From Mesostigma viride (Eukaryota > Streptophyta > Mesostigmatophyceae > Mesostigmatales > Mesostigmataceae): a DNA stretch of 64,000 bases. Shown one piece after another: positions 24,701 to 64,000 of this stretch. The stretch's first letter is position 1. The number at the start of each line of letters is the position of its first letter. The DNA lies in NCBI GenBank assembly GCA_009746045.1, contig RPFO01000826.1, forward strand, positions 1 to 64,000. Direction: 5' to 3'. The translations under genes and the position numbers were made by a program. Under the pieces are notes generated by a model. The model had not been told where the DNA came from and made no database searches. It saw only the letters and a program-made list of their open reading frames with translations.

Positions 24701-27139
24701 TACCAGCCAAATATAACAATCAAAGCCAGTCCATGCGTAGCTTGCGGACTTGCCCTACCAGGAAGCTTGGCTCGTTGCCATGGCCGCCTCTTTCGATGCT
24801 ATCTAATTCTATTGAGGCTATCTGATTCTATTGATGCTATTTAATTTGATTGATGCTATATGATTCTATTGAGGCTATCTTAAGGGGTTGGAGGCAAAGA
24901 ACACTTACCTGCATGGCCTGTTGGTGCACACGGGAAAGTAACGCTCCGGCGCTGCCCACCCTGGCCTTGCGCGTTGGCCGCACGAATGGTTGACCGCACG
25001 CAGAAAGACGACTTGATGTCCGTGGTTGACTACTTGCGGGCGGAGGAAGGCGTGTCCAAGATCGCGCTGTGGGGGCGGTCCATGGGCGCGGTGACGTGGT
25101 AAGGGGCATCTCATGAGCCTTTAGAGTCCCCTTACGAGGTGGGGGGCACGCGCCCAGCGGCGTGGGCAGGGGCACGCACGGCTACCCATCTCATTAGACT
25201 TGCGTCCCCGTAGGCAGCCGTGGTGAGCCACAGTCACCAAGTGAAGTTAGGTTTGGAGTAAGTAAAGTTGGGTGGCCATGGGTGGGGTTTGGGCGTTGCT
25301 ACCCATTTTCTGTAGGCTGCCACCCGATATCTTCACCCAGGTGAGCCCGGTATGGTTGAACCCGATAACGTGTCAAGCCCTTCATCCAGGAACCGTGTTG
25401 GCCGAGTCTTGGCTTGCTAGGGCGGCCGTCCACCATCCTGTGGGTTGCATACTAGTCTTTCGTCTACCAAGGACGGATGTTGGCCGGTCACCCTTCCAAC
25501 CATTTCGCAGGGAACCTCTTCGTATCAAACATATCACCGGGCACCCTTCCAACCATATCTTATTGGACCCCTGCGATCAGAGAATGAGGGCAACCCCCTG
25601 GCCGGCACTCATATGCGCTAAGTCTATGATGTGTGCAGCGGCACAGTATTGCTTTCGTGACATGCCAGCAAGAGCCGACAGGCAACTGTGGATTTTTTTC
25701 TCGGAATCCATCTTCCAGAGGATCGACATCGGTTTACCTAGGCCCCCTCATGAGTGCCTGCTCTATTTTTCATCCTTGTTTCATGCTGGCATCGAGCTCG
25801 CATGATAATTCTTTTTGTGTTATCTCCTGATGGCTCCCATTTGGATTGTGGCTCGCATGGCTCGCATTCAAGTTATGTTCCTAATTAATTAATTAATGGC
25901 TCGCACTCAAGTTTGATATCGGTGACCCTCGCTCACCCCATTTCGTTTGCATCAGCTGCCCGCTCGTGACTCATCCCATGCACGCCCATCGCCGTACCCA
26001 TGGCGAAGCGCCTCTTGTCCAGGCAAACTGTTTAGGGTTTAGGGTTTAGGGCTTAGGGTTTAGGGTTTAGGGTTTAGGGTTTAGGGTTTAGGGTTTAGGG
26101 TTTAGGGTTTAGGGTTTAGGGTTTAGGGTTTAGGGTTTAGGGTTTAGGGTTTAGGGTTTAGGGTTTAGGGTTTAGGGTTTAGGGTTTAGGGTTTAGGGTT
26201 TAGGGTTTAGGGTTTAGGGTTTAGGGTTTAGGGTTTAGGGTTTAGGGTTTAGGGTTTAGGGTTTAGGGTTTAGGGTTTAGGGTTTAGGGTTTAGGGTTTA
26301 GGGTTTAGGGTTTAGTGTCATGTTTCATGTTTATGTGTCATGTTTCATGTTTATGTGTCATGTTTCATGTTTGTGTGTCATGTTTCATGTTTATGTGTCA
26401 TGTTTCATGTTTATGTGTCATGTTTCATGTTTATGTGTCATGTTTCATGTTTGTGTGTCATGTTTCATGTTTATGTGTCATGTTTCCTGTTTATGTGTCA
26501 TGTTTCATGTTTATGTGTCATGTTTCATGTTTATGTGTCACGTTTCATGTTTCTGTGTCATGTTTCATGTTTATGTGTCATGTTTCATGTTTATGTGTCA
26601 TGTTTCATGTTTGTGTGTCATGTTTCATGTTTATGTGTCATGCTCATGCCTACGTCGCTCTGCCCCACGTCCAACGTGCACGTCGCTCTGCCCCTCGCCT
26701 GCCCAAACTCGCTCTAACCCTTGCCGCACTGCCCCGTTCCCAACAACTTTTTTGTTGGGAACCACCCCTTCTCACACTACCGCTTGCCCCACAAACACAA
26801 ACCACCCCTTCTCACACTACCGCTTGCCCTCAAACGCAAACCACCCCTTCTCACACTAGCGCTTGCGCCACAAATGCAAACCACCCCTTCCCGCACTGCC
26901 CACTTGTCCCGCACTTGGCCATGCTCCCCCCGTTGGCCCAGCCTGCGGTACGGCGTGGCGGATCCCAGCATCGCGGGGCTGGTTCTGGACAGCCCGTTCT
27001 GCCGCCTGACCGACCTGATGCTGGAGCTGACCGACACGTACGGCGTGCGCGTGCCCCGCAGCATGGTGCGCTTGTGTGTGCTGGCGTCCGCCGTCTCTCC
27101 CCTCTTGGATGCTTTAGCACAGCGTGGTGCGGTGCTATG

Positions 27140-37194: not shown

Positions 37195-39277
37195 CTACTC
37201 AACAGGTCTCTTCTTGGCCAAGTTCGTGAGCCGTTTCTCGACGTCTGTCGGAATGGTCAAGATGGCCTGGCGATTGTTAGCTGGGTTGACAACAATGGTG
37301 TGTTCGAACCCCGCGTCCATGCACAGGTAGCAATTGACCAAGTTTGGCTGTTCAGCTTGCGCATCGGCGTCCATTTTGAACATCGTCGCCATACCCGGAA
37401 ATCTGTCCCAGTAGCGCACCCCCACCACCCATTGTCCCTTACGGAACAACTCCCTATCGACCTTGCCGTTTCTGTCGGCCACTCGCCTCACGAAAGTAGC
37501 GGCCACCTGATAAGGCTCCTGCAAGACTTCCGCTAGCCAATATGGATGATCTGGATCGTGGGACTCATCACCAGAGTAGGACTCGACGGCAAAAATGTCT
37601 CGCAGCTTCAGTCTCCTTCCCATCATCGTCCTCTCTGCCTGTAGTCTGTTCAGTCGCGTCCCTGCGTGCCCCCCTTGTCCGTTTGGGTTCCTTTGCACTG
37701 GCTCCCCCAGTTTGTGGAGCTTCATCCGAGCACCTCCCACATTCCAGCCGTCCATGTCGGTCCACTCCTTTCGACAATCCCACCACCTTTCCTCGGCGCA
37801 CGCACCGCCACAATAGCAGGAATACTGGCGCAGCATTAAGCGCGTCACATTCGACTTGTCCATGCGCCACCAGTGCGCCTTCTTCACTCCTTTGATTTCG
37901 CCGCGCCCTGGGCTGTAAGGAAGCACCTGCGCGTCGAAGACAAGATTTGCACAAGGGAAAGTTGAAGTTACGAGACCATCGAGCTAGTTGTGTTTTATTA
38001 AGCACTCCTGATCGCCAGGACTCCAAGAACGCCCTAGAAACGACGGCCGGCGTAACTATTCCCTGAACGAGGACTGTACACTTAATTACCTCGGGGAACT
38101 CGAAGAAGTTACGCCTGGTCGTTGTGGTCCCGCCCACCGCCCCCGACGCCAGATTCTCCACCAACTGGGCGGCCGTCTGTTTGTCCTGGTTCTCTTCCCT
38201 GATGTGCCACCTCCTCAACATGCACTTCACAGTCCCACCAGCTCCATCCACCTCCCCCTTTCCGTGCTGCTCCCCAAAGTAATTCCACTCAAATGACTCC
38301 AGGTGCGGATCCTCCGTCAGCAGCCGGGCCACTTCCGCGATCACATTCCTTGACTTGAACTGCATGGAGCAATTGTCCGACCACCCAATGAAGCGCTTCA
38401 CCTCTACCCCTTCTGACCGTAGTGTCGCCAGGATTTTGAGGATAGCAAAACGGAGGGCCCGCCCGTCCCTTTTCATTCCGCCCTGTCCGATGAAGTGAAA
38501 CTCCCTTCTCACGACCTTTCCCGACGCTGGATCCAAGTAGCGCACGATCCAGGGCATAAGGACGAATGTGACTGGATGCCAATACTGTGCTTGGAGATTG
38601 TGATAGGTGTAAGACTGGTAGTTCTCGGCGTAATCTGTGTGGCATACAAGGTCCCCCACCCGCATCCTTGAGAGACATTCCTTGGAGGCGTCCGCTTGCC
38701 ACCACGCGTTGAAGCAATGCTGGATGAAGTCCGGCCACTTGTCCACAATTGCCTCCTTTAGCTCCGTTGGTGTGGACTTGACGTCGACTTGCGTCAATCG
38801 CTGCCCACCAGCCTTTGCGATCTCGTCACAGTCGTCCTGCATATGCGCAGTGTGCACATACAGAAAAGACATCAACTTCGACCCACCAATGACCTGTAGA
38901 AAGAAAAAAGACAGGACCTCAGGAAAAATTGAAAAAGAAACGCCTTGGGGCGCAACCACTCCACTAAAAATTACCTCTGGCCCAAGAACTTCAGGAAACA
39001 TTGCAAAAGAAACGCCTTGGGGCGCAACCACTCCACTAAAAATTACCTCTGGCCCAAGAACCGCACCCGGCGGCACATCCTGCATCTCGTATCTGGTCCA
39101 TGAAATCAGGTGGTTGGAAGCCTCCTCCCGTTCGCATAACATGAAGTTCCGAATTCCACACTTGGGAGCCAGGCAAGTGCCCAACACACAAGCCTTACGC
39201 CGGATCGAGCAAACCCCCAACTCCTCGCCCAGGTCATGATCGGGCACCCCTTCCTCGTCGTCCAGCACCCTCCCATG
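37195..39277 (-). pseudogene. split transposase-like gene, C-terminal half
   Basis: Exons on the minus strand: 39277-39047 (continued from 55850 across the insertion), 38893-38090, 37926-37195; introns are phase 0. The first part has Cys pairs (GVCSIRRKACVLGTCLAPKC). The second holds conserved acidic motifs CHTDYAENYQ, GWSDNCSMQFKSR and HGKGEVDGAGGTVK. The last has YSCYCGGAC and a DIFAVESYSGDE region near a WLAEV segment. This combination is found in a widespread, poorly characterised family of element-borne proteins in algae and animals. The spaced Asp residues suggest an RNase H-like transposase or integrase, which is inference. The intron at 38894-39046 contains a 72-bp tandem duplication of its own donor region. 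The gene is broken by the 16.6 kb insertion, so it cannot now be made as one protein. Confidence 0.6.
39275..39277. other. left copy of 3-bp target-site duplication (ATG)
   Basis: ATG immediately before the left terminal repeat. The matching ATG is at 55850-55852, immediately after the right one. Confidence 0.6.
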
Positions 39278-39380
39278 GGGTGGTTTTACCGGATTAGGAT
39301 ACATTTGCACGGCTTCAAATGTATCCTAAATGCACCATTGGCAAACATGGTTTCTGGACATGGTCGATATCATTAATATG

Positions 39381-39413: not shown

Positions 39414-39939
39414 GATGTTGTCTCTTTTCATATTTCACACATATTATCGGCCTCGGCGTGCCATGCTTCCACGTTTGTTGTCTCTTTTCATATATTGTAA
39501 GTATGATCAATAAAATTCCAAACATGACCATGTTGGAGACTTCAAGTGGAGCATCATGATTACTGTTTTCACTATTACGTAACCCATGGTTCATGTTAAC
39601 ATGGCATAATGAGCAATCCTATTGACCCCATGACTAATGGTGAAGTTAATAAAGTTACATCGTGGCACGTCACTATAGCATCAAGTTGCATCATTGTGCA
39701 TAAAGTAGTTTAGCACTGAGTTGGCATGCCAACACCAGGTACACTAAATAAATTAAAACCAGAATTGATAAACAACCCAGTATCCAAATACAGTATCCAT
39801 ATATATTAAAAATATAATTACTTACAGCAGAGTGAAATCACTCAAACCAAAGCAAACGCCCAGCTATAAACCTATATACAGAGCCATGTCAAAGCTCTAT
39901 ACTACGATAAGACCAATGGAAACGCCTAACGGGAGGAAC

Positions 39940-42900
39940 CTAATAGCCCTGCTGCACCGCAAAATCAGCCCGCGTACGGCGGAGCATGATGTCCGCCATG
40001 GCCCGAGTCAGCGCCACCGACAAGCGCTGACGCCAATATGACGTCCAGGTCCGCGCCGACCATGGGGCCCGCTGGCCCTCCAGGTCCAGCCGGTCCTCCC
40101 GGAGCCGGCAACACTCCTTGAAGAAGGCGGAGGTCAGGGGCCCCATGGCCCCAAACTCCTCCAGGACAAAGGGCACCACACGATGGTGCCCGACGTCGCC
40201 GTAGGCCAGGAGCTTGGCCCGCTCCGCCCGGTCCGCCGTGTAACCTGCCGTGAGGGAGGCCCCAGCCACGTGGCTAAGAGCCAAGGGCCGCGCCACCGAA
40301 ACGTCAATAAGCAGATGCCGGCCACCCCCCTCAAAGTCCAGCACCACGATGTCAGGCCGGTGGTTGGGGGAATAGAAGGCAGCGCCATCCGCATCCTCGG
40401 ACCGGATGTTCGCGTGGGGGAAAACCGACCGAATCATGGCGAGCACCACCGTCAGGAGGACAGTGTGCAAATACAAATACCAATTCTGATTCTGTTGGCC
40501 CCCCATGCAGGCAAGGTAGTGAGTCCCCGTGGGATCCAGCGGCTGCCCACAGCTACCACAAGGCCGCCCGGCCGGAACAAGAGGCTGCGGGGCAAATAGC
40601 TGGTGCCGGAGCGCCACCGAGTAGTGGCTGGGAGCCAAGGCGAATGGGGGGGCCATGGGAAGAGCACGAAGGTACGCCGAGCCCACACTCCGCAAGGAAA
40701 GCGAGAACAGCCACGCACGTCCCTGGGCGTTGAGGTCCGCGAAAAGAGCAATCCAATCAGCCGTGTGCAGAATACCCGCGTAGGTTTTCTGGTGTTTATC
40801 GATGACGCGAGCAGGGAATGCGGCGGGAGATTGAACGGAGGCGACCGAGGGAGTGCCGCGAGGGAGGTGGCGCTGTACCGCCTGAGCGGCACGGACGGGA
40901 GAACAGGCCTGCTGGATCTCAGCATAGGCCTCCTGGATGGCGGTGACGAAGGGCAAAGGGCTGCTGGGGTCCAGGAGGTCAGGCGCTGCCGTTGCCAAAA
41001 GGGGCAGGAGCCGGCAGCTTTCCGCCCACGACTGAGCGACGGAGCCCAAAAAGGCTGCTGGGGCCAGCCGGGCGGCACGAGTCAGACCGCAGCCACCCAT
41101 CCGTGCAGGCAGGGAGGCAATGCGAATAGCATGTGGCGGGAGGTCGGGGCCCGGGACCAGCTGCGCCAAGGCCGACTGGATGCGTTCGTCGTGGCCCTCG
41201 GCGGCCAGCCGGACCTGAGACGGAAGAGCGCCCCGGAGCCAGTGAACGACGCGAGGGTGAGCGCAAAACCACAGAAGCAGACCCTTGGTCTGCGAATCAT
41301 GAAGGCGCGCAATCAAGGGCAGTACCTCAGTGCGTGCCTCGAGGGCGGCCCGCAGAGCATCGATGACAAACGCGGGGTCGCCAACCGGAACGCCGAGGAC
41401 ATCCAACCCATGGAGGCGCTCGTCCCGGCCCAAGAGCTGGGGCGGAAAGCCGGAGCAATCACCTTGGGGCGAGTACACCGCGCACTTGGCAAGGGTCAAC
41501 TGGAGGTTGATGTCGGCCACCGCGGTCTGCAGTGCCAGCAGAGCCGCGGTGGTGTCCGGCACAGGGCCCAGAAGGTAGATATCATCCAAGTAGGCCTGAA
41601 TAGCGACCGCCGGGTGGGCAGCATGGACCGCTTGGAGGCAACCCTGGAGGGGGGCGGCAAAGTACAGGGGTCCCAGGGGGTCCCCTTGCTGGGTGCCCGA
41701 CCGCGACAGCAGGCCGCCGCGAGTGCCGTCCTCCATGATGTGAACCAGTTGGCCGGGCTGGCCGTAGCACACGGCTGTCCAAGCGTACAAGTCCTCGAAG
41801 GACTCCATGACGGCCGCAAACATGCTGGCGCGGGACAGACTGTTGAACGCGTTGTGGCAGTCGACCTTGACGACAGCGTGGGTGGGGTGGGCCTCGAGGT
41901 AGGCCTGCACCGAATGGATGAGGATATCCGCCCCGCCTGGAGTCGTCACCCCCAGCTGGGCCGCCACCGAGGTCTCACCCGCTGCGAGGGGCGGGCAGAA
42001 AAAGGCACGGAGCTCGGGCGCCTTTTGGCGGCAGATCACTTTGCCCACGAGCTTGCGGAGCACCTCACCGCAGGCGATCGGGCGCACCTTGCCCTCGGGG
42101 GGGGCAAGACACCCTTGAGCAGAGCGAGGAGGCGAGCGCCCGCTAACCACTCGCGCGCAGCGGGAGGAACGCGACCAGCCGCCAGGTCAATGAGGGTGTC
42201 AAAGAGAATGTCCTCGCCCCCATGCCCCACCAGGACCTCCAAGTGCTCGTAGCGCCAGCCCGACGGCCCGGTAGAGGAAGCCCGCGGGACCTCACGCATC
42301 ACCTCCAGGAAGCAGTCGCGGTCCAGCCGGAGGGGGGCCGGCAGGGGGTCCGGCACGGGCAGCTGGAATCCGGGCTCCGCAGGGTGAAGAGCCTCCAAGG
42401 CCGCCAGGGTAGCCGCATTGGCGGGGGCGAGCTTGGCCATTTCCAAGCGGGTCATGGCCCGGCTGAGCTGCCCCTCGCGGACGAGGCGGATGACGTCGGC
42501 GGCCACCCGCTCGAAGTTGACCTCCCCCGACAGCCGGGCCGTGCGCGGGGGCGGCACGCCAAACAGCCCCTCCCAGTCCCCCTGCAGAAAGCGTCGGCAA
42601 CGGGCAATAACCGCACCCTGGAGGCCGCGCACACCACGCCCGAGAGGGGTGAGGAGCAGGCGGGGGGTCACCATGTGCAGTTTAAAGCCCAGCGGGTCGT
42701 CCGGAGCGGCGTGCATGCGCCGGAGAGAAACGATTGCACATTGCGCGAAAAGGCTACGCGCGCGGTGGGGGAGGTCGGTCAGGGTAGACGTCGGGTTGAT
42801 GGCGCATGCATCCCAGGGAACCGTGTCAAGCCAACGCCAACTGGCCGAGTAGTCGGGCGGCGGGGGCTGGGAGCCGGGGGAGCCGAGGCGGGAGGGGGGA

Positions 42901-45106
42901 GGGGGCCGGGACTGCTGGCCGGTTGAGGGGCCGTTGAGCAACACAGGCGCGCGCGTGCTGAGCGCGCCCGTGAATGGAGTACACCCGCTGGCAGTGAGCT
43001 TCCGGGCACCGGTAACAGCTCATGGCCTGCAGATCCGCCGCGCCGAGATCGGGGTGCACAGCGCGAAGGTGCTGGCAGAGGAGGTTACGGTTGTGGAACA
43101 CACCCGCACACGGGGACCCCGTGGGAAGCAGCACGGCACACCGGTGAAGGCCGTCGGCGGGCGCTGAGTGGCGGGGAGCGGCGCCAGCAAAGGCAGGACG
43201 TGGGGCCTGCGGCGTCTCCCCAGCCGGGCCGGCAGGCGCGCGCACCACGACCCGACCAGCGCCCGGCAGGCCCGCCGGGGCCACGGAGGAGGCAGTGCCC
43301 ACCGGGGAGACCCCCAGCGGAGGGGGATCGAGAACGCCGGCGCCCCTCCCAGGGGGACTCGCCAGCGCGCCCGCGACCACCCCAGGCCCCGGCAACGAGG
43401 CCGGGGGCGGAGGCCGAGGGGTCGGGGAGGCAGCTGGCCCCGGGGCCCGGTGGGGACCCGGCAGGGGACCCAGCGAGACCGGGGGCGGGCCGAGAGGAAG
43501 CGCAGTCCCAGGGGGCGGCACAACAGCCCGGCACAACGGGCAGCGCGGCACGGAGTGGAGCAAGCTGCGCGCGATGCACGCTTGATGGAATGTGTGGCCG
43601 CACGCGGGCAGGCGACACAAGCCATCCCCCGGCCGGAAGGGCTCAAGGCAGATGGCACAGGAGCCCGACTCGGGGTCGTCCCCCTCCAGAAGGGACCGGA
43701 CATGAGGGGGGGGCGGGTCCCAGCCGGCCTCCCAGCAACCCGGGAGAGCGGCAATCTGGGCGCGCGAGAGGATGCCGACCGGTTGGTCAGCCGCGGGGTG
43801 CCATTCGTGCGGGATGCCTGCCAACTCCAGGATGTCGTGGAGGAAGGCAGAAACAGGCGTCCCCGCGGTTAGGGGCTGGGCGCGCCCGGCCGAGTCCACC
43901 AAGATGGCCTGGCCGCCCTGAACCGCGATGGGGGCCCCGAACTCCACACGCAGCATGGCGGCCTGCGCCAGGCTGAGGGAGGTGATGAGAAAGCCCCCAC
44001 TGGCAACCGGGCCGGGAGGCGGGGCCTGGGCGTCCAAGAAGAGGCGAAGCTGCCGCGGGGACATGAGGCCCAGGTCGGCGCCGCCCGCGAGGTAGGCCGC
44101 CCGCACCGAGACCTGTGCGTCTCGAGCCACCGCCGTGACGAACTCGACCACCGCCTGACCCACCCGCTCGTCCAGGGAAAGCAGCTCTTCCTGCCGGGCG
44201 GCCGGGAGATGCCACGGCAGCCGGCAGCCGGCGTGATATCCTTCCAAGACATACCCCCAAAGAGTCGAGGCCGTCACCGGGGGGCGGCGGAAAGAAATGT
44301 CGCCCGCACCTGCGCAACTAGGGCCAGGAAGGCCGGGGGCCTAGGGAGCGAGGGGAAGGCGGCCTGGAGCCCGACCGCGTCCAGCAACAAAGGGCAGTAC
44401 GCCCAAGAAAAGGTGGCGCGGCCCACCACGCCGACAATGTGCGAGGGCGGCCACGAGGTGAACGCGTGGGCCCGGGGGCCGCCGTCCCACGCGGCAAGGA
44501 CGGGGGTGGCGGCTGGGTGGCCAACCGCGGCCGGGGGAAGGGAGGCCAGAGCGTCGGGGAGCGAGGGGCCGGGGGCGGGCGCCGGGGTCGCCAGGCCCGC
44601 CGGGGGTCGGCCGGGCTCAGCCCAGGCGACAGCGCCGCGCCCCCGTCGGCGGGGCCAGGCGACGGGTGGGGCCCCGGGGCCGAGGGCGCCAGGGCCCGAG
44701 CAACGGCGGCCCCATCGGGCAGGCCACGGCCCGCCCCGAGGGCCTCGGCAGGGGGGCACACGGGGCAGGGGGCCGGAGCACCCAGCGGGGAGGGCAGCCC
44801 GGGGGCCCGCCGGGGGGGACAGCGCGGGCACGTCCAGGAGCCCGGCGGGACCCGGTAGAGCCGGGGAGTAAGACACTGCAAGTGCCACCCGGAATTGCAA
44901 GCATCACAAACTAACATGTGGTGCCCGCGGTGCCCGCTCCGGCAGACCTCGCAGACCAAGGAGGGGGAGACCGGGGCGCCCGAGCCCCCCGCAGCCGGGT
45001 CGCCCACCTCCGCAAGAAGGGCCGCAAGCCGAGAGGACCGCCGAGGCGCCAACCGGGGAGCGGGGGAGCCGTTGGGCGAAGGGGGTCGTGGGTCGTCCAT
45101 GAACAA
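39940..45106 (-). pseudogene. retrotransposon polyprotein: PHD, RING and C2H2 fingers, reverse transcriptase, restriction-like endonuclease
   Basis: Starts near 45106/45100 (MFMDDPRPPSP). In order: a PHD finger C4HC3 (CEVCRSG, LVCDACNSGWHLQC, WTCPRC) near 44830-44980; a RING-H2 finger (CAICLEPF, LPACGHTFHQAC, RCPLC) near 43520-43660; C2H2-type fingers (CAGVF, LCQHLRAVH, CYRCPEAHC) near 42960-43130; a pre-RT region; RT motifs GKVRPIA, VVKVDCHNAFNSL, SGTQQGDPLGPL and catalytic AYLDDIYLLG (41550-42090); a CCHC knuckle CGSCGQPLDPTGTHYLAC; and an RPDIVVLDF ... LLIDVSV endonuclease core near 40290-40360. The RT plus restriction-like endonuclease layout is that of the R2/CRE/NeSL-type early-branching LINEs, which nick a target site and prime reverse transcription there. 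The frame changes about four times (near 44570, 44290, 42900, 42100), the last in an 8-base homopolymer. It is therefore either a decayed copy or one with assembly errors. Confidence 0.82.
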
Positions 45107-45214
45107 TCAGGGCAGGCGTGGCAGCCACCGAGGGGGGGGGCGGGGGGTGTGGGGGGCGGAGCCCCCCACGCGGGGGTTTGGGGGGCGGCAGCCCCCCAAC
45201 GCGCTGCGGTCGCG

Positions 45215-47084
45215 GTACCGCCTGCCGTCCGGCACTTTGAAGCCCGCCGGTGCTATAATTCCTATCGTCCACGCATGTTTTCCCCTGCCTCAAACCGCAC
45301 GTTGCATTTAAATCTGGAGCCCAAAATTCACTGAAAACGTGTGCCAGCCGGTAGCAAACTGGGCCAAGCTGCCACGGAATGGTGGTACCGCCTGCCGTCC
45401 GGCACTTTGAAGCCCGCCGGTGCTATAATTCCTATCGTCCACGCATGTTTTCCCCTGCCTCAAACCGCACGTTGCATTTAAATCTGGAGCCCAAAATTCA
45501 CTGAAAACGTGTGCCAGCCGGTAGCAAACTGGGCCAAGCTGCCACGGAATGGTGGTACCGCCTGCCGTCCGGCACTTTGAAGCCCGCCGGTGCTATAATT
45601 CCTATCGTCCACGCATGTTTTCCCCTGCCTCAAACCGCACGTTGCATTTAAATCTGGAGCCCAAAATTCACTGAAAACGTGTGCCAGCCGGTAGCAAACT
45701 GGGCCAAGCTGCCACGGAATGGTGGTACCGCCTGCCGTCCGGCACTTTGAAGCCCGCCGGTGCTATAATTCCTATCGTCCACGCATGTTTTCCCCTGCCT
45801 CAAACCGCACGTTGCATTTAAATCTGGAGCCCAAAATTCACTGAAAACGTGTGCCAGCCGGTAGCAAACTGGGGCAAGCTGCCACGGAATGGTGGTACCG
45901 CCTGCCGTCCGGCACTTTGAAGCCCGCCGGTGCTATAATTCCTATCGTCCACGCATGTTTTCCCCTGCCTCAAACCGCACGTTGCATTTAAATCTGGAGC
46001 CCAAAATTCACTGAAAACGTGTGCCAGCCGGTAGCAAACTGGGGCAAGCTGCCACGGAATGGTGGTACCGCCTGCCGTCCGGCACTTTGAAGCCCGCCGG
46101 TGCTATAATTCCTATCGTCCACGCATGTTTTCCCCTGCCTCAAACCGCACGTTGCATTTAAATCTGGAGCCCAAAATTCACTGAAAACGTGTGCCAGCCG
46201 GTAGCAAACTGGGCCAAGCTGCCACGGAATGGTGGTACCGCCTGCCGTCCGGCACTTTGAAGCCCGCCGGTGCTATAATTCCTATCGTCCACGCATGTTT
46301 TCCCCTGCCTCAAACCGCACGTTGCATTTAAATCTGGAGCCCAAAATTCACTGAAAACGTGTGCCAGCCGGTAGCAAACTGGGGCAAGCTGCCACGGAAT
46401 GGTGGTACCGCCTGCCGTCCGGCACTTTGAAGCCCGCCGGTGCTATAATTCCTATCGTCCACGCATGTTTTCCCCTGCCTCAAACCGCACGTTGCATTTA
46501 AATCTGGAGCCCAAAATTCACTGAAAACGTGTGCCAGCCGGTAGCAAACTGGGGCAAGCTGCCACGGAATGGTGGTACCGCCTGCCGTCCGGCACTTTGA
46601 AGCCCGCCGGTGCTATAATTCCTATCGTCCACGCATGTTTTCCCCTGCCTCAAACCGCACGTTGCATTTAAATCTGGAGCCCAAAATTCACTGAAAACGT
46701 GTGCCAGCCGGTAGCAAACTGGGGCAAGCTGCCACGGAATGGTGGTACCGCCTGCCGTCCGGCACTTTGAAGCCCGCCGGTGCTATAATTCCTATCGTCC
46801 ACGCATGTTTTCCCCTGCCTCAAACCGCACGTTGCATTTAAATCTGGAGCCCAAAATTCACTGAAAACGTGTGCCAGCCGGTAGCAAACTGGGGCAAGCT
46901 GCCACGGAATGGTGGTACCGCCTGCCGTCCGGCACTTTGAAGCCCGCCGGTGCTATAATTCCTATCGTCCACGCATGTTTTCCCCTGCCTCAAACCGCAC
47001 GTTGCATTTAAATCTGGAGCCCAAAATTCACTGAAAACGTGTGCCAGCCGGTAGCAAACTGGGGCAAGCTGCCACGGAATATAT
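45215..47084. repeat. 170-bp monomer array, 11 near-identical copies
   Basis: Units start at 45215 and every 170 bp to 46915 with GTACCGCCTGCCGTCCGGCA. The only variation I noticed is GGGCCAAGC (copies 1-3 and 6) versus GGGGCAAGC (the rest). Each unit contains TGCTATAATTCC, a possible TATA-like element. The array ends 109 bp upstream of the retrotransposon's first Met, so the monomers may act as repeated promoters, as in rodent L1. That role is inference. Confidence 0.9.
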
Positions 47085-47439
47085 ATGCAGGTCGTACTAC
47101 AGGTACAGCCACGGCTGCCACGCGGCTTCTGCAGCGATCACGCTCTTTCTCCTAGACAATTGCTCTACTGGTCCCTACAGGTCGGTCGACTTGGACCATG
47201 ATGCGTCAAGAACAGTTAATTGACCGACTTAAACAAGATGTTTGTCTACATGCAGCTGTCTGCACCTAACTAACGCGAAACCGCGTGCTACCAAATATAG
47301 GGGGAAATGCATGAGTAACACATGTCAACGCACAACCGGTGGAAATCACGCGATACCAACCGCGGCAACAGTGGTGTGAACATAGCGGGCACTGACATGC
47401 AAAAAAGCACCAGCAGCGGCATCAGTAGCAAATTGTAGT

Positions 47440-61140: not shown

Positions 61141-64000
61141 TTAAGAATGGTATCTCATTGTTCCATGAATCAATATGACTCCATGTACGTAGACAAGCCA
61201 TGATGACCCCATGGGAGCCTGAATCCTCATCATTAAATACATAAATGCCACCCATGTACGTAGACGGGCCATGATGACACCAATGGAGCCTGAATCCTCA
61301 TCATTAATTACATAAATGCCAACCATGTACATACACGGGCAATGATGACACCATGGGAGCCTGAATCCTCATCATTAATTACATAAATGCCAACCATGTA
61401 CGTAGGCCAGCCATGATGACACTGTGGGAGCCTGAATCCTCATCATTAATTTCATACATGCCAACAACACGTAGACGGGCCATAATGACACCACGGGAGC
61501 CTGAATCCTGATCATTTTTTTTTCTTTGACATCCATGTACGTAGGCCAGCCATGATGACACCATGGGAGCCTGAATCCTCATCATTTTTTTTCTGAGACA
61601 TCCATGTACGTAGGCCAGCCATGATGACACCATGGGAGCCTGAATCCTCATCATTTTTTTTCTGAGACATCCATGTACGTAGGCCAGCCATGATGACACC
61701 ATGGGAGCCTGAATCCTCATCATTAAATACATACATGCCATCCATGTACGTAGACAGGCCATGACATCTGACACCATGGGAGCCTGAATCCTCATCATTT
61801 ACTATTCCTTGACATCCATGTACGTAGACGGGCCATGATGACACCATGGGAGCCTGAATCCTCTTCATTTTTTTTTCTTTGACATCCATGTACATACGTA
61901 GGCCAGCCATGATGACACCAATGGAGCCTGAATCCTCATCATTAATTACATACATAAATGCCATGATCATCAATGACCCCATGGGAGCCTGAATCCTCAT
62001 CATTAAATACATAAATGCCACGGTCCATGTACGTAGACGGGCCATGATGACACCAATGGAGCCTGAATCCTCATCATTAATTACATAAATGCCAACCATG
62101 TACATACACGGGCAATGATGACACCATGGGAGCCTGAATCCTCATCATTAATTACATAAATGCCAACCATGTACGTAGGCCAGCCATGATGACACTATGG
62201 GAGCCTGAATCCTCATCATTCATTTCATACATGCCAACAACACGTAGACGGGCCATAATGACACCACGGGAGCCTGAATCCTCATCATTTTTTTTTCTTT
62301 GACATCCATGTACGTAGGCCAGCCATGATGACACCATGGGAGCCTGAATCCTCATCATTTTTTTTCTGACATCCATGTACGTAGGCCAGCCATGATGACA
62401 CCATGGGAGCCTGAATCCTCATCATTAAATACATACATGCCATCCATGTACGTAGACAGGCCATGATGACACCATGGGAGCCTGAATCCTCATCATTTAC
62501 TATTCCTTGACATCCATGTACGTAGGGCCATGATGACACCATGGGAGCCTGAATCCTCATCATTTTTTTTCTTTGACATCCATGTACGTAGGCCAGCCAT
62601 GATGACACCAATGGAGCCTGAATTCTCATCATTAATTACATACATGCCATCCATGTACGTAGACAGGCCATGATGACACCATGGGAGCCTGAATCCTCAT
62701 CATTTACTATTCCTTGACATCCATGTACGTAGGCCAGCCATGATGACACCATGGGAGCCTGAATCCTCATCATTTTTTTTTTTGCCATCCATGTACGTAG
62801 GCCAGCCATGATGACACCAATGGAGCCTGAATCCTCATCATTAATTACATAAATGCCAACCATGTACATACACGGGCAATGATGACACCATGGAGCCTGA
62901 ATCCTCATCATTAATTACATAAATGCAACCATGTACATACACGGGCAATGATGACACCATGGGAGCCTGAATCCTCATCATTTTCTTTGACATCCATGTA
63001 CGTAGAGCCATGATGACACCAATGGAGCCTGAATCCTCATCATTAATTACATACATGCCATCCATGTACGTAGACAAGCCATGATGACACCATGGGAGCC
63101 TGAATCCTCATCATTAATTACATACATGCCATCCATGTACGTAGACAGCCATGATGACACCATGGGAGCCTGAATCCTCATCATTTATTTTTGACATCCA
63201 TGTACGTAGGCCAGCCATGATGACACCATGGGAGCCTGAATCCTCATCATTAATTACATAAATGCCATCCATGTACGTAGACAAGCCATGATGACACCAT
63301 GGGAGCCTGAATCCTCATCATTAATTACATAAATGCCATCCATGTACGTAGACGGGCCATGATGACACCATGGGAGCCTGAATCCTCATCATTTACTATT
63401 CCTTGACATCCATGTACGTAGGCCAGCCATGGAGACACCATGGGAGCCTGAATCCTCCTCATTAATTACATAAATGCCAACCATGTACGTAGACAAGCCA
63501 TGATGACACCATGGGAGCCTGAATCCTCATCATTAATTACATAAATGCCATCCATGTACGTAGACAAGCCATGATGACACCATGGGAGCCTGAATCCTCA
63601 TCATTAATTACATAAATGCCAACCATGTACGTAGACAAGCCATGATGACACCATGGGAGCCTGAATCCTCATCATTAATTACATTGCCATCCATGTACGT
63701 AGGCAGCCATGATGACACCATGGGAGCCTGAATCCTCATCATTAATTACATAAATGCCAACCATGTACGTAGGCCAGCCATGATGACACCATGGGAGCCT
63801 GAATCCTCATCATTAATTACATAATGCCATCCATGTACGTAGACAAGCCATGATGACACCATGGGAGCCTGAATCCTCATCATTTATATTTTGACATCCA
63901 TGTACGTAGGCCAGCCATGATGACACCATGGGAGCCTGAATCCTCATCATTTTACATGACATCCATGTACGTAGGCCAGCCATGATGACACCATGGGAGC
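61141..64000. repeat. roughly 71-bp satellite running off the right edge, about 40 copies
   Basis: The unit contains CCATGTACGTAGACAAGCCA, TGATGACACCATGGGAGCCT and GAATCCTCATCATTAATTAC. Units vary in the linker between CATCATT and CCATGTACG: ATTAATTACATAAATGCC, poly-T then CTTTGACAT, or TACTATTCCTTGACAT. Larger blocks of unit types repeat (61200-61980 resembles 62040-62640), showing segmental duplication of the array. Confidence 0.95.

Follow-up and report, generated by a model that had tools for sequence, protein, structure and literature searches.

A non-LTR retrotransposon of Mesostigma viride encoding PHD, RING-H2 and C2H2-like fingers

Relation to described LINEs

LINEs are usually thought to rely on the chromatin and ubiquitin systems of the host rather than to carry their own. 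Among LINEs with a restriction-like endonuclease (RLE), Utopia, NeSL and HERO have zinc fingers at the N-terminus and in some cases further domains (Ulp1 protease, RNase H) according to the available part of PMC4640811, a paper whose main text does not contain the words PHD or RING. CR1 and L2, which are AP-endonuclease LINEs, encode a PHD finger in ORF1, upstream of the RT protein, and this finger has been proposed to guide integration (PMC4120745, in the available text of which the word 'ring' is absent).

Within the 64,000-nucleotide stretch of DNA analyzed here (the window), positions 39799-47080 of the minus strand contain a non-LTR retrotransposon encoding PHD, RING-H2 and C2H2-like fingers, an RT and a C-terminal nuclease region (Table 1). 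It resembles Utopia, NeSL and HERO in combining an RLE with N-terminal zinc fingers and extra domains, and CR1 and L2 in the placement of the PHD finger. The preliminary description of an RLE-type LINE with these fingers is supported and the domains lie where it placed them, but the span it gave (39940-45106) is too short, the element also including a 170-bp tandem array and a short 3' UTR.

Table 1. Features of the element, with positions in the window
Feature	Position	Strand	Basis
170-bp tandem array, 11 units; 5' UTR / putative repeated promoter	45214..47080	-	TRF; units also in other copies
ORF encoding PHD finger (ORF1 or N-terminal part), ATG at 45100	44318..45100	-	open as 254 aa in L034, L031
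PHD finger (C4HC3)	44819..44953	-	PF00628 E 2.3e-10; closest solved PHDs CHD4, WSTF, ATXR5, KDM5B
SWPP domain ('SWPP...FSW.....LDA.G...RQEELL'), upstream of RING	44139..44462	-	common to P0014, P0029, P0103
RING-H2 finger (C3H2C3)	43528..43662	-	PF13639 E 3.2e-11; closest solved RINGs Arkadia, EL5, RNF165
Two C2H2/C2HC-like fingers	42934..43146	-	inspection only; P0014, P0029 have similar ones immediately N-terminal to RT
RT N-terminal extension	42105..42650	-	homology to P0001 and other relatives
Reverse transcriptase core (QGDP, YLDD)	41446..42093	-	PF00078 E 6.8e-11
CCHC knuckle, C-x2-C-x9-H-x3-C	40507..40560	-	inspection; four ligands invariant in eight aligned sequences
Restriction-like endonuclease motifs (RPD ... 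D ... K)	40200..40400	-	inspection; region aligned with R2
3' UTR and 3' end, without poly-A, AT-rich tail at terminus	39799..39939	-	identical end in 34 printed loci

The LINE-type RT, together with a fixed 3' end, 5' truncation and target-site repeats, identifies the element as a non-LTR retrotransposon. When used singly against PDB sequences the RT ORF matched no chain. A profile built from the eight aligned sequences matched R2 proteins (9nl3, 9dou) with E about 1e-35, over a region running from the RT via the CCHC knuckle to the RPD/D motifs, and these parts align with R2 (also 8gh6) along most of their length. The alignment to the C-terminus and the lack of any Pfam match to an AP endonuclease in the element place it among R2-like RLE LINEs, with a knuckle spacing slightly off the C-x2-3-C-x7-8-H-x4-C given in the available part of PMC5678591. 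The absence of a poly-A tail is likewise R2-like. Unlike R2, the element carries RING and PHD fingers and has TATATA targets. By its insertion sites it falls outside the R2 clade proper, which inserts in 28S rDNA, as no Rfam match, rDNA included, was found in the 64-kb window and readable flanks are TATATA-rich; the window copy thus lies outside rDNA. Utopia inserts within or beside U2 snRNA genes; a search of the window gave no U2 match at the gathering threshold.

Judged from its sequence, the element is a variant of RLE LINE not described before, for which histone targeting and ligase activity are predicted. The earlier remark that no described LINE with the full set was known holds in so far as no LINE with a RING finger was recognized by title or abstract start among the literature matches listed, a set whose scope excludes most subscription journals, but the PHD finger had already been reported in CR1 and L2. 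The presence of a PHD in a LINE is therefore no novelty as such, and the available text of PMC4120745 makes the same targeting guess.

The finger domains

The PHD, RING and RT domains all score above the curated cut-offs of PF00628, PF13639 and PF00078, and inspection showed the C4HC3 and C3H2C3 ligands to be present, bearing out the assignment of a clear PHD finger and a RING-H2 finger. The claimed RT and RLE are confirmed by the RVT_1 match and, for the nuclease, by motifs and the R2 profile alignment. The proposed C2H2 fingers show a C2H2-like pattern by inspection but gave no Pfam match. The SWPP domain gave none either; in the relative P0014 its counterpart is predicted by structure modeling to be helical (mean pLDDT 72).

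Several of the PHD fingers closest to that of the element (Table 1) bind unmodified H3K4. Many RINGs have a tryptophan ahead of the final two cysteines, a position at which, by eye, the element has a leucine. This substitution would suit fingers that serve the LINE protein solely as zinc-bound modules for structure or nucleic-acid binding, lacking histone reading or ubiquitin ligase activity. Such a role is somewhat unlikely given that both fingers exceed their family cut-offs with all zinc ligands in place by eye, that the closest solved structures are those of RING-H2 ligases and of PHDs from chromatin proteins, and that the RING is retained in divergent relatives. Each finger differs from its counterparts in copies L035 and L036 by one replacement and no synonymous change, numbers too small for selection on the fingers to be measurable.

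Copies, reading frames and target sites

A pattern search for an internal site of the element returned 537 matches in the same genome and none for the reversed pattern, and the copies compared were 97.9-100% identical. Twenty copies, drawn from those selected by an open RT frame, were retrieved to look for the stretch from the PHD to the next domain, and 18 had it; those of the copies read in which PHD or RING is missing are truncated at the 5' end. Target-primed reverse transcription leaves copies truncated in this way, and the pattern seen here is that expected of it. The same 3' end was seen at 34 loci whose flanks mostly differ, L032 and L034 being re-read copies of L004 and L016. Upstream of the ATG, 170-bp units number about 3 in L031, about 24 in L034, at least 1 in L036 and about half of one in L035, and the 5' terminus of the array differs slightly in base position among copies; these repeats are part of the element. 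Some R2 elements have a 5' ribozyme, and no Rfam match to one was obtained at E up to 1 within 45000-47400. Uncorrected dN/dS against the window copy was 0.25 for all codons of L035 and 0.09 in its RT and RLE, 0.12-0.19 for L034, L042 and L045 and about 0.3 for L040 and L046, while the comparison with L036 gave 0.60 (11 synonymous, 17 replacement changes).

The coding region of the window copy requires four frame changes, three of them at poly-C runs. These breaks could suggest that a host PHD/RING gene merely adjoins an ordinary LINE or was fused to one during assembly, but independent copies at different places have the same domain order, and P0014, which comes from a source other than the window genome, has RING, RT and nuclease in a single 1592-aa frame. 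A host-gene fusion or assembly chimera was rejected on these grounds as extremely improbable, a conclusion that also follows from the number and identity of the copies and from their target repeats and TATATA targets. Neither of the two outcomes that the preliminary description named as refuting it was observed.

The part from SWPP through RING, C2H2-like fingers and RT to RLE forms one frame when tiled from overlapping open frames of different copies, with nothing mended: L036 is open across the entire SWPP domain past RQEELL, L045 has a 755-aa open frame from RQEELL through RING and C2H2 to the RT N-terminus, and L042 has one of 1124 aa from C2H2 through RT and RLE to the stop; L035 has a 743-aa frame without the SWPP start. 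None of the copies examined has the whole frame open. At a poly-C site just ahead of the RT core the frame is kept in 34/34 loci (30 distinct copies), a figure biased by the choice of loci with an open 748-aa RT frame, whereas poly-C length keeps the frame in 15 of 100 places among the matches listed (537 in total).

The PHD finger does not share this frame. It is out of frame with the SWPP domain in 24/24 copies, and a single protein from PHD through RT and nuclease, as had been described, is therefore not supported; in L036 a break falls within the PHD itself. The PHD is thus probably encoded in an ORF of its own or connected to the rest by frameshifting. We consider it about an even chance that it forms a separate small ORF1 protein of 254-262 aa, with the long protein beginning later at the SWPP-RING part: none of the 24 copies joins the frames, while the 43 codons up to the PHD end remain open in 21 of them, and the available text of PMC4120745 describes an ORF1 PHD in CR1 and L2. 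However, the downstream frame has no ATG ahead of the SWPP domain, and in the relatives P0029 and P0103 the N-terminal domains run on into SWPP-RING without a break.

Where the ends of a copy can be read, the site is rich in TATATA, and in most cases target-site repeats are present. Of the 14 copies that retain a 5' end, 12 have repeats of 6-24 bp at both ends, and TATAT or ATATA occurred within the last 20 nt of 12/13 5' flanks compared with 2% of background 20-mers; both counts are favored by three of the 13-14 flanks (L020, L033, L040), which lie within another copy's AT tail. Mean repeat length was 10.4 for paired and 5.1 for mispaired ends, with at least 9 shared bases also seen in 41 of 182 mispaired ends.

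Relatives and proposed role

Precomputed annotation placed RING PF13639 in 4 of 97 relatives (P0014, P0029, P0103 and P0105), and these fall with the window element within one 17-tip clade (support 0.99), suggesting from sequence comparison that the RING is probably ancestral to this clade. These LINEs, from the green alga Cymbomonas tetramitiformis and metagenomes, share RING-H2, C2H2-like fingers and RT with the element. P0105 has no aligned SWPP-like domain, P0103 and P0105 contain only pieces of the RT, and the nuclease end is seen in P0014; P0014 and P0029 differ from the element in having two RINGs each. PHD PF00628 was annotated in none of the 97 relatives, these four included, nor in any of 11 in another set. 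P0103 has a Tudor-like N-terminus, and as some Cymbomonas relatives carry a Tudor-like domain in place of the PHD, the N-terminal chromatin-reader slot seems to be exchangeable. No close relatives were found among viral contigs. Although P0107 is labeled Prorocentrum lima, a dinoflagellate host was rejected, since the 21-base spliced leader of dinoflagellates has no occurrence in the 440-Mb genome.

We favor, with moderate confidence, the view that the element is a recently active, high-copy, R2-like RLE LINE with a PHD encoded just upstream and with chromatin roles for its fingers. The RLE would nick TATATA-like DNA and the element RNA would be copied from the nick, with the C2H2-like fingers aiding DNA or RNA binding. 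The PHD could tether the particle to a certain class of nucleosomes, and the RING could serve as ubiquitin ligase, its substrate being a nucleosome or host factor where the element inserts, or else the protein of the element itself.

LINEs of this type may carry equipment of their own for dealing with the chromatin of the host. A more speculative and rather improbable extension is that in the RLE LINE clade of Cymbomonas, the metagenomes and this host a ubiquitin ligase belongs to the core machinery while N-terminal reader modules (PHD, Tudor-like) are swapped, that TATATA-site nuclease and histone reader jointly set target choice, and that retrotransposition routinely involves ubiquitylating the site or host factors. 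A clade with RING-H2 in the RT frame, preceded by a PHD or Tudor-like reader, makes testable both the choice of sites by histone marks and the use of ubiquitylation by LINEs to clear or recruit host factors, and with hundreds of near-identical copies the target pattern is measurable from the assembly alone.

Organization and affiliation of the element

The region is occupied by a single non-LTR retrotransposon, the parts of which are listed in the table together with other features of the window. SWPP, a conserved domain between PHD and RING named after its motif, and the C2H2-like fingers gave no Pfam match, and matches were obtained for PHD (E 2.3e-10), RING (E 3.2e-11) and RVT_1 (E 6.8e-11), all above the curated cut-offs, confirming the two fingers and the RT named in the preliminary description. 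When a profile of eight sequences (A1) was searched against the PDB, R2 proteins were the top matches (E about 1e-35), with an alignment reaching from the RT almost to the C-terminus; L1 ORF2p ranked behind them (E 5e-12). This order of matches places the element, on sequence grounds, among LINEs with a restriction-like endonuclease (RLE). The RLE itself, also proposed previously, was borne out by the RPD...D...K motifs and by the extent of the R2 alignment.

Features of the element and of the surrounding window
Feature	Position	Strand	Remarks
Retrotransposon, entire	39799-47080	-	
170-bp tandem units, eleven	45214-47080	-	5'-most part of element
ATG of PHD-bearing ORF	45100	-	3' of tandem array
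Domains after ATG, 5' to 3'		-	PHD, SWPP, RING-H2, two C2H2-like fingers, RT, CCHC knuckle, RPD...D...K nuclease motifs
Stop codon of coding region	39940	-	
3' UTR		-	about 140 bases, AT tail at end, without poly-A
Open frame adjoining element	37568-39325	-	585 aa; Pfam search to E 1 without a match
Interstitial telomere-repeat tract	26030-26315		about 41 TTTAGGG-type repeats
Satellite	61180-64000		71-bp units, about 40 copies, extends to window end

Copies, ends and tandem array

The element is real, young and multi-copy. In the 440 Mb genome (2243 contigs) the 748-aa RT frame was present at 100% identity in at least 60 scored copies (8190 candidates, part of them scored), and one internal site with exact flanks matched 537 times, its reversed pattern giving no match in the same genome. 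The 3' end was identical across 34 listed loci. Two of these, L032 and L034, cover again the copies already read in L004 and L016, and two others, L031 and L033, hold neighbours of the copies in L001 and L007. Flanks of the loci were mostly different, with one common to L014 and L019, and several copies were nested inside others. The best match to the window copy was 99.5-100% identical at most loci; for L035, L036, L037, L040 and L046 the figure was 97.9-98.6%. Repeats of 6-24 bp were observed at both ends in 12 of the 14 copies having a 5' end, and TATAT or ATATA within the last 20 nt of the 5' flank in 12 of 13 (L032 excluded). Of background 20-mers, drawn from distant flanks and from those parts of the window that the element does not cover, 2% hold either motif. 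Both the repeat and the TATAT/ATATA counts are favoured by L020, L033 and L040, each of which is inserted into the AT tail of a further copy; the 24-bp repeat of L040 takes in that tail. The two copies without end repeats were L030 and L032, the latter ending at an assembly gap. Mean end repeat was 10.4 for true pairs versus 5.1 for ends mispaired between copies, with values of at least 9 in 9/14 true versus 41/182 false pairs. Copies with 5' truncation were seen, yet 18 of 20 sampled by open RT frame extended to PHD. An invariant 3' end, loss of 5' sequence and repeats of the target site are established hallmarks of target-primed reverse transcription in LINEs.

The 170-bp array is part of the element, because its units precede the ATG in other copies as well (about three in L031, about 24 in L034, one or more in L036, roughly half a unit in L035), the outer ends differing slightly in base position. 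It may represent a repeated promoter by analogy with mouse L1 monomers. In L037, a rearranged copy, the array adjoins an internal element piece in opposite orientation.

Reading frames and selection

The coding region of the window copy requires four frame changes, three of them at poly-C runs, the lengths of which vary among copies. Unmended, L036 is open over the entire SWPP domain beyond RQEELL, part of the conserved pattern of that domain; L045 has 755 aa open from RQEELL through RING and C2H2 to the RT N-terminus, with RING confirmed; and in L042 1124 aa are open, starting at C2H2 and continuing over RT and RLE as far as the stop, with RVT_1 confirmed. Since these frames overlap, the element has a single frame running over SWPP-RING-C2H2-RT-RLE, pieced together from different copies; none of the copies examined was open throughout. 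At the poly-C site 5' of the RT core, the frame-keeping length was present in 15 of the 100 places listed out of 537, and run-length differences are either biological or sequencing errors.

PHD and SWPP were out of frame in all 24 places with exact anchors for PHD end and SWPP start (spacing class 2 in 15, class 1 in 9, in frame in none), 18 of which stem from copies picked by RT frame, such that less frequent spacing classes may have escaped notice. In 21 of these places the 43 codons leading to the PHD end were open, and the downstream frame held no ATG before SWPP. With PHD out of frame and these codons open, PHD is therefore probably translated from an ORF1 of its own (254-262 aa) or joined to the rest through frameshifting.

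Uncorrected dN/dS values against the window copy as reference were 0.25 for L035 (29 synonymous, 19 replacement changes; 0.09 in RT+RLE), 0.19 for L034, 0.15 for L042, 0.12 for L045, 0.32 for L040 and 0.31 for L046, and higher, 0.60, for L036 (11 synonymous, 17 replacement). PHD and RING each showed one replacement and no synonymous change versus L035 and L036, numbers too small to judge selection.

Relatives, known elements and proposed mechanism

P0107, a EukProt protein labelled Prorocentrum lima, is identical to the element over 332 residues including RING and was the one protein found by a search with the N-terminal half. Because the genome holding the window has no exact dinoflagellate spliced leader, the data set of P0107 may be wrongly labelled or its culture mixed; a very recent transfer may also account for the identity. 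If this EukProt set is RNA-derived, as we presume, the element is transcribed. Among other related proteins, an OTU domain was observed in P0026, a Ulp1-type peptidase in P0091 and RNase H in P0010 and P0068, with a RING-like pattern in P0096 and, discerned by eye, an OTU-like stretch in P0031. SLBP-like and Dam-like profiles are matched by P0009, below cut-off, and by P0072, according to its precomputed annotation. P0009 also has, by eye, three 2A-like ...NPGP motifs 5' of the RT. Ribosome skipping may be one route to several products in such LINEs.

In published descriptions, CR1 and L2 LINEs carry PHD fingers in ORF1 with suggested integration targeting (PMC4120745), RLE LINEs carry zinc finger and Myb motifs (PMC5678591), and Utopia RLE LINEs carry Ulp1 or RNase H as well (PMC4640811), a word search of the main text of the Utopia paper finding neither PHD nor RING. 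The literature matches listed include no LINE with RING, and we therefore consider an RLE LINE that combines RING and PHD a new form of a known type of element; PHD in a LINE ORF1 was already known from CR1/L2. Judged from the related proteins above, ubiquitin-pathway domains are recurrent in the wider LINE group to which they belong.

The element PHD is closest to those of CHD4, WSTF, ATXR5 and KDM5B, several of which read unmodified H3K4, and the K4me3-cage tryptophan is absent from its usual place (by eye). RING resembles Arkadia, EL5 and RNF165. In the mechanism we propose, RT and RLE would work as in R2, nicking, priming on the target and copying, with RLE and C2H2 as the likely source of the TATATA preference, whilst PHD could dock on nucleosomes and RING could ubiquitylate a histone, a host factor or the element's own protein.
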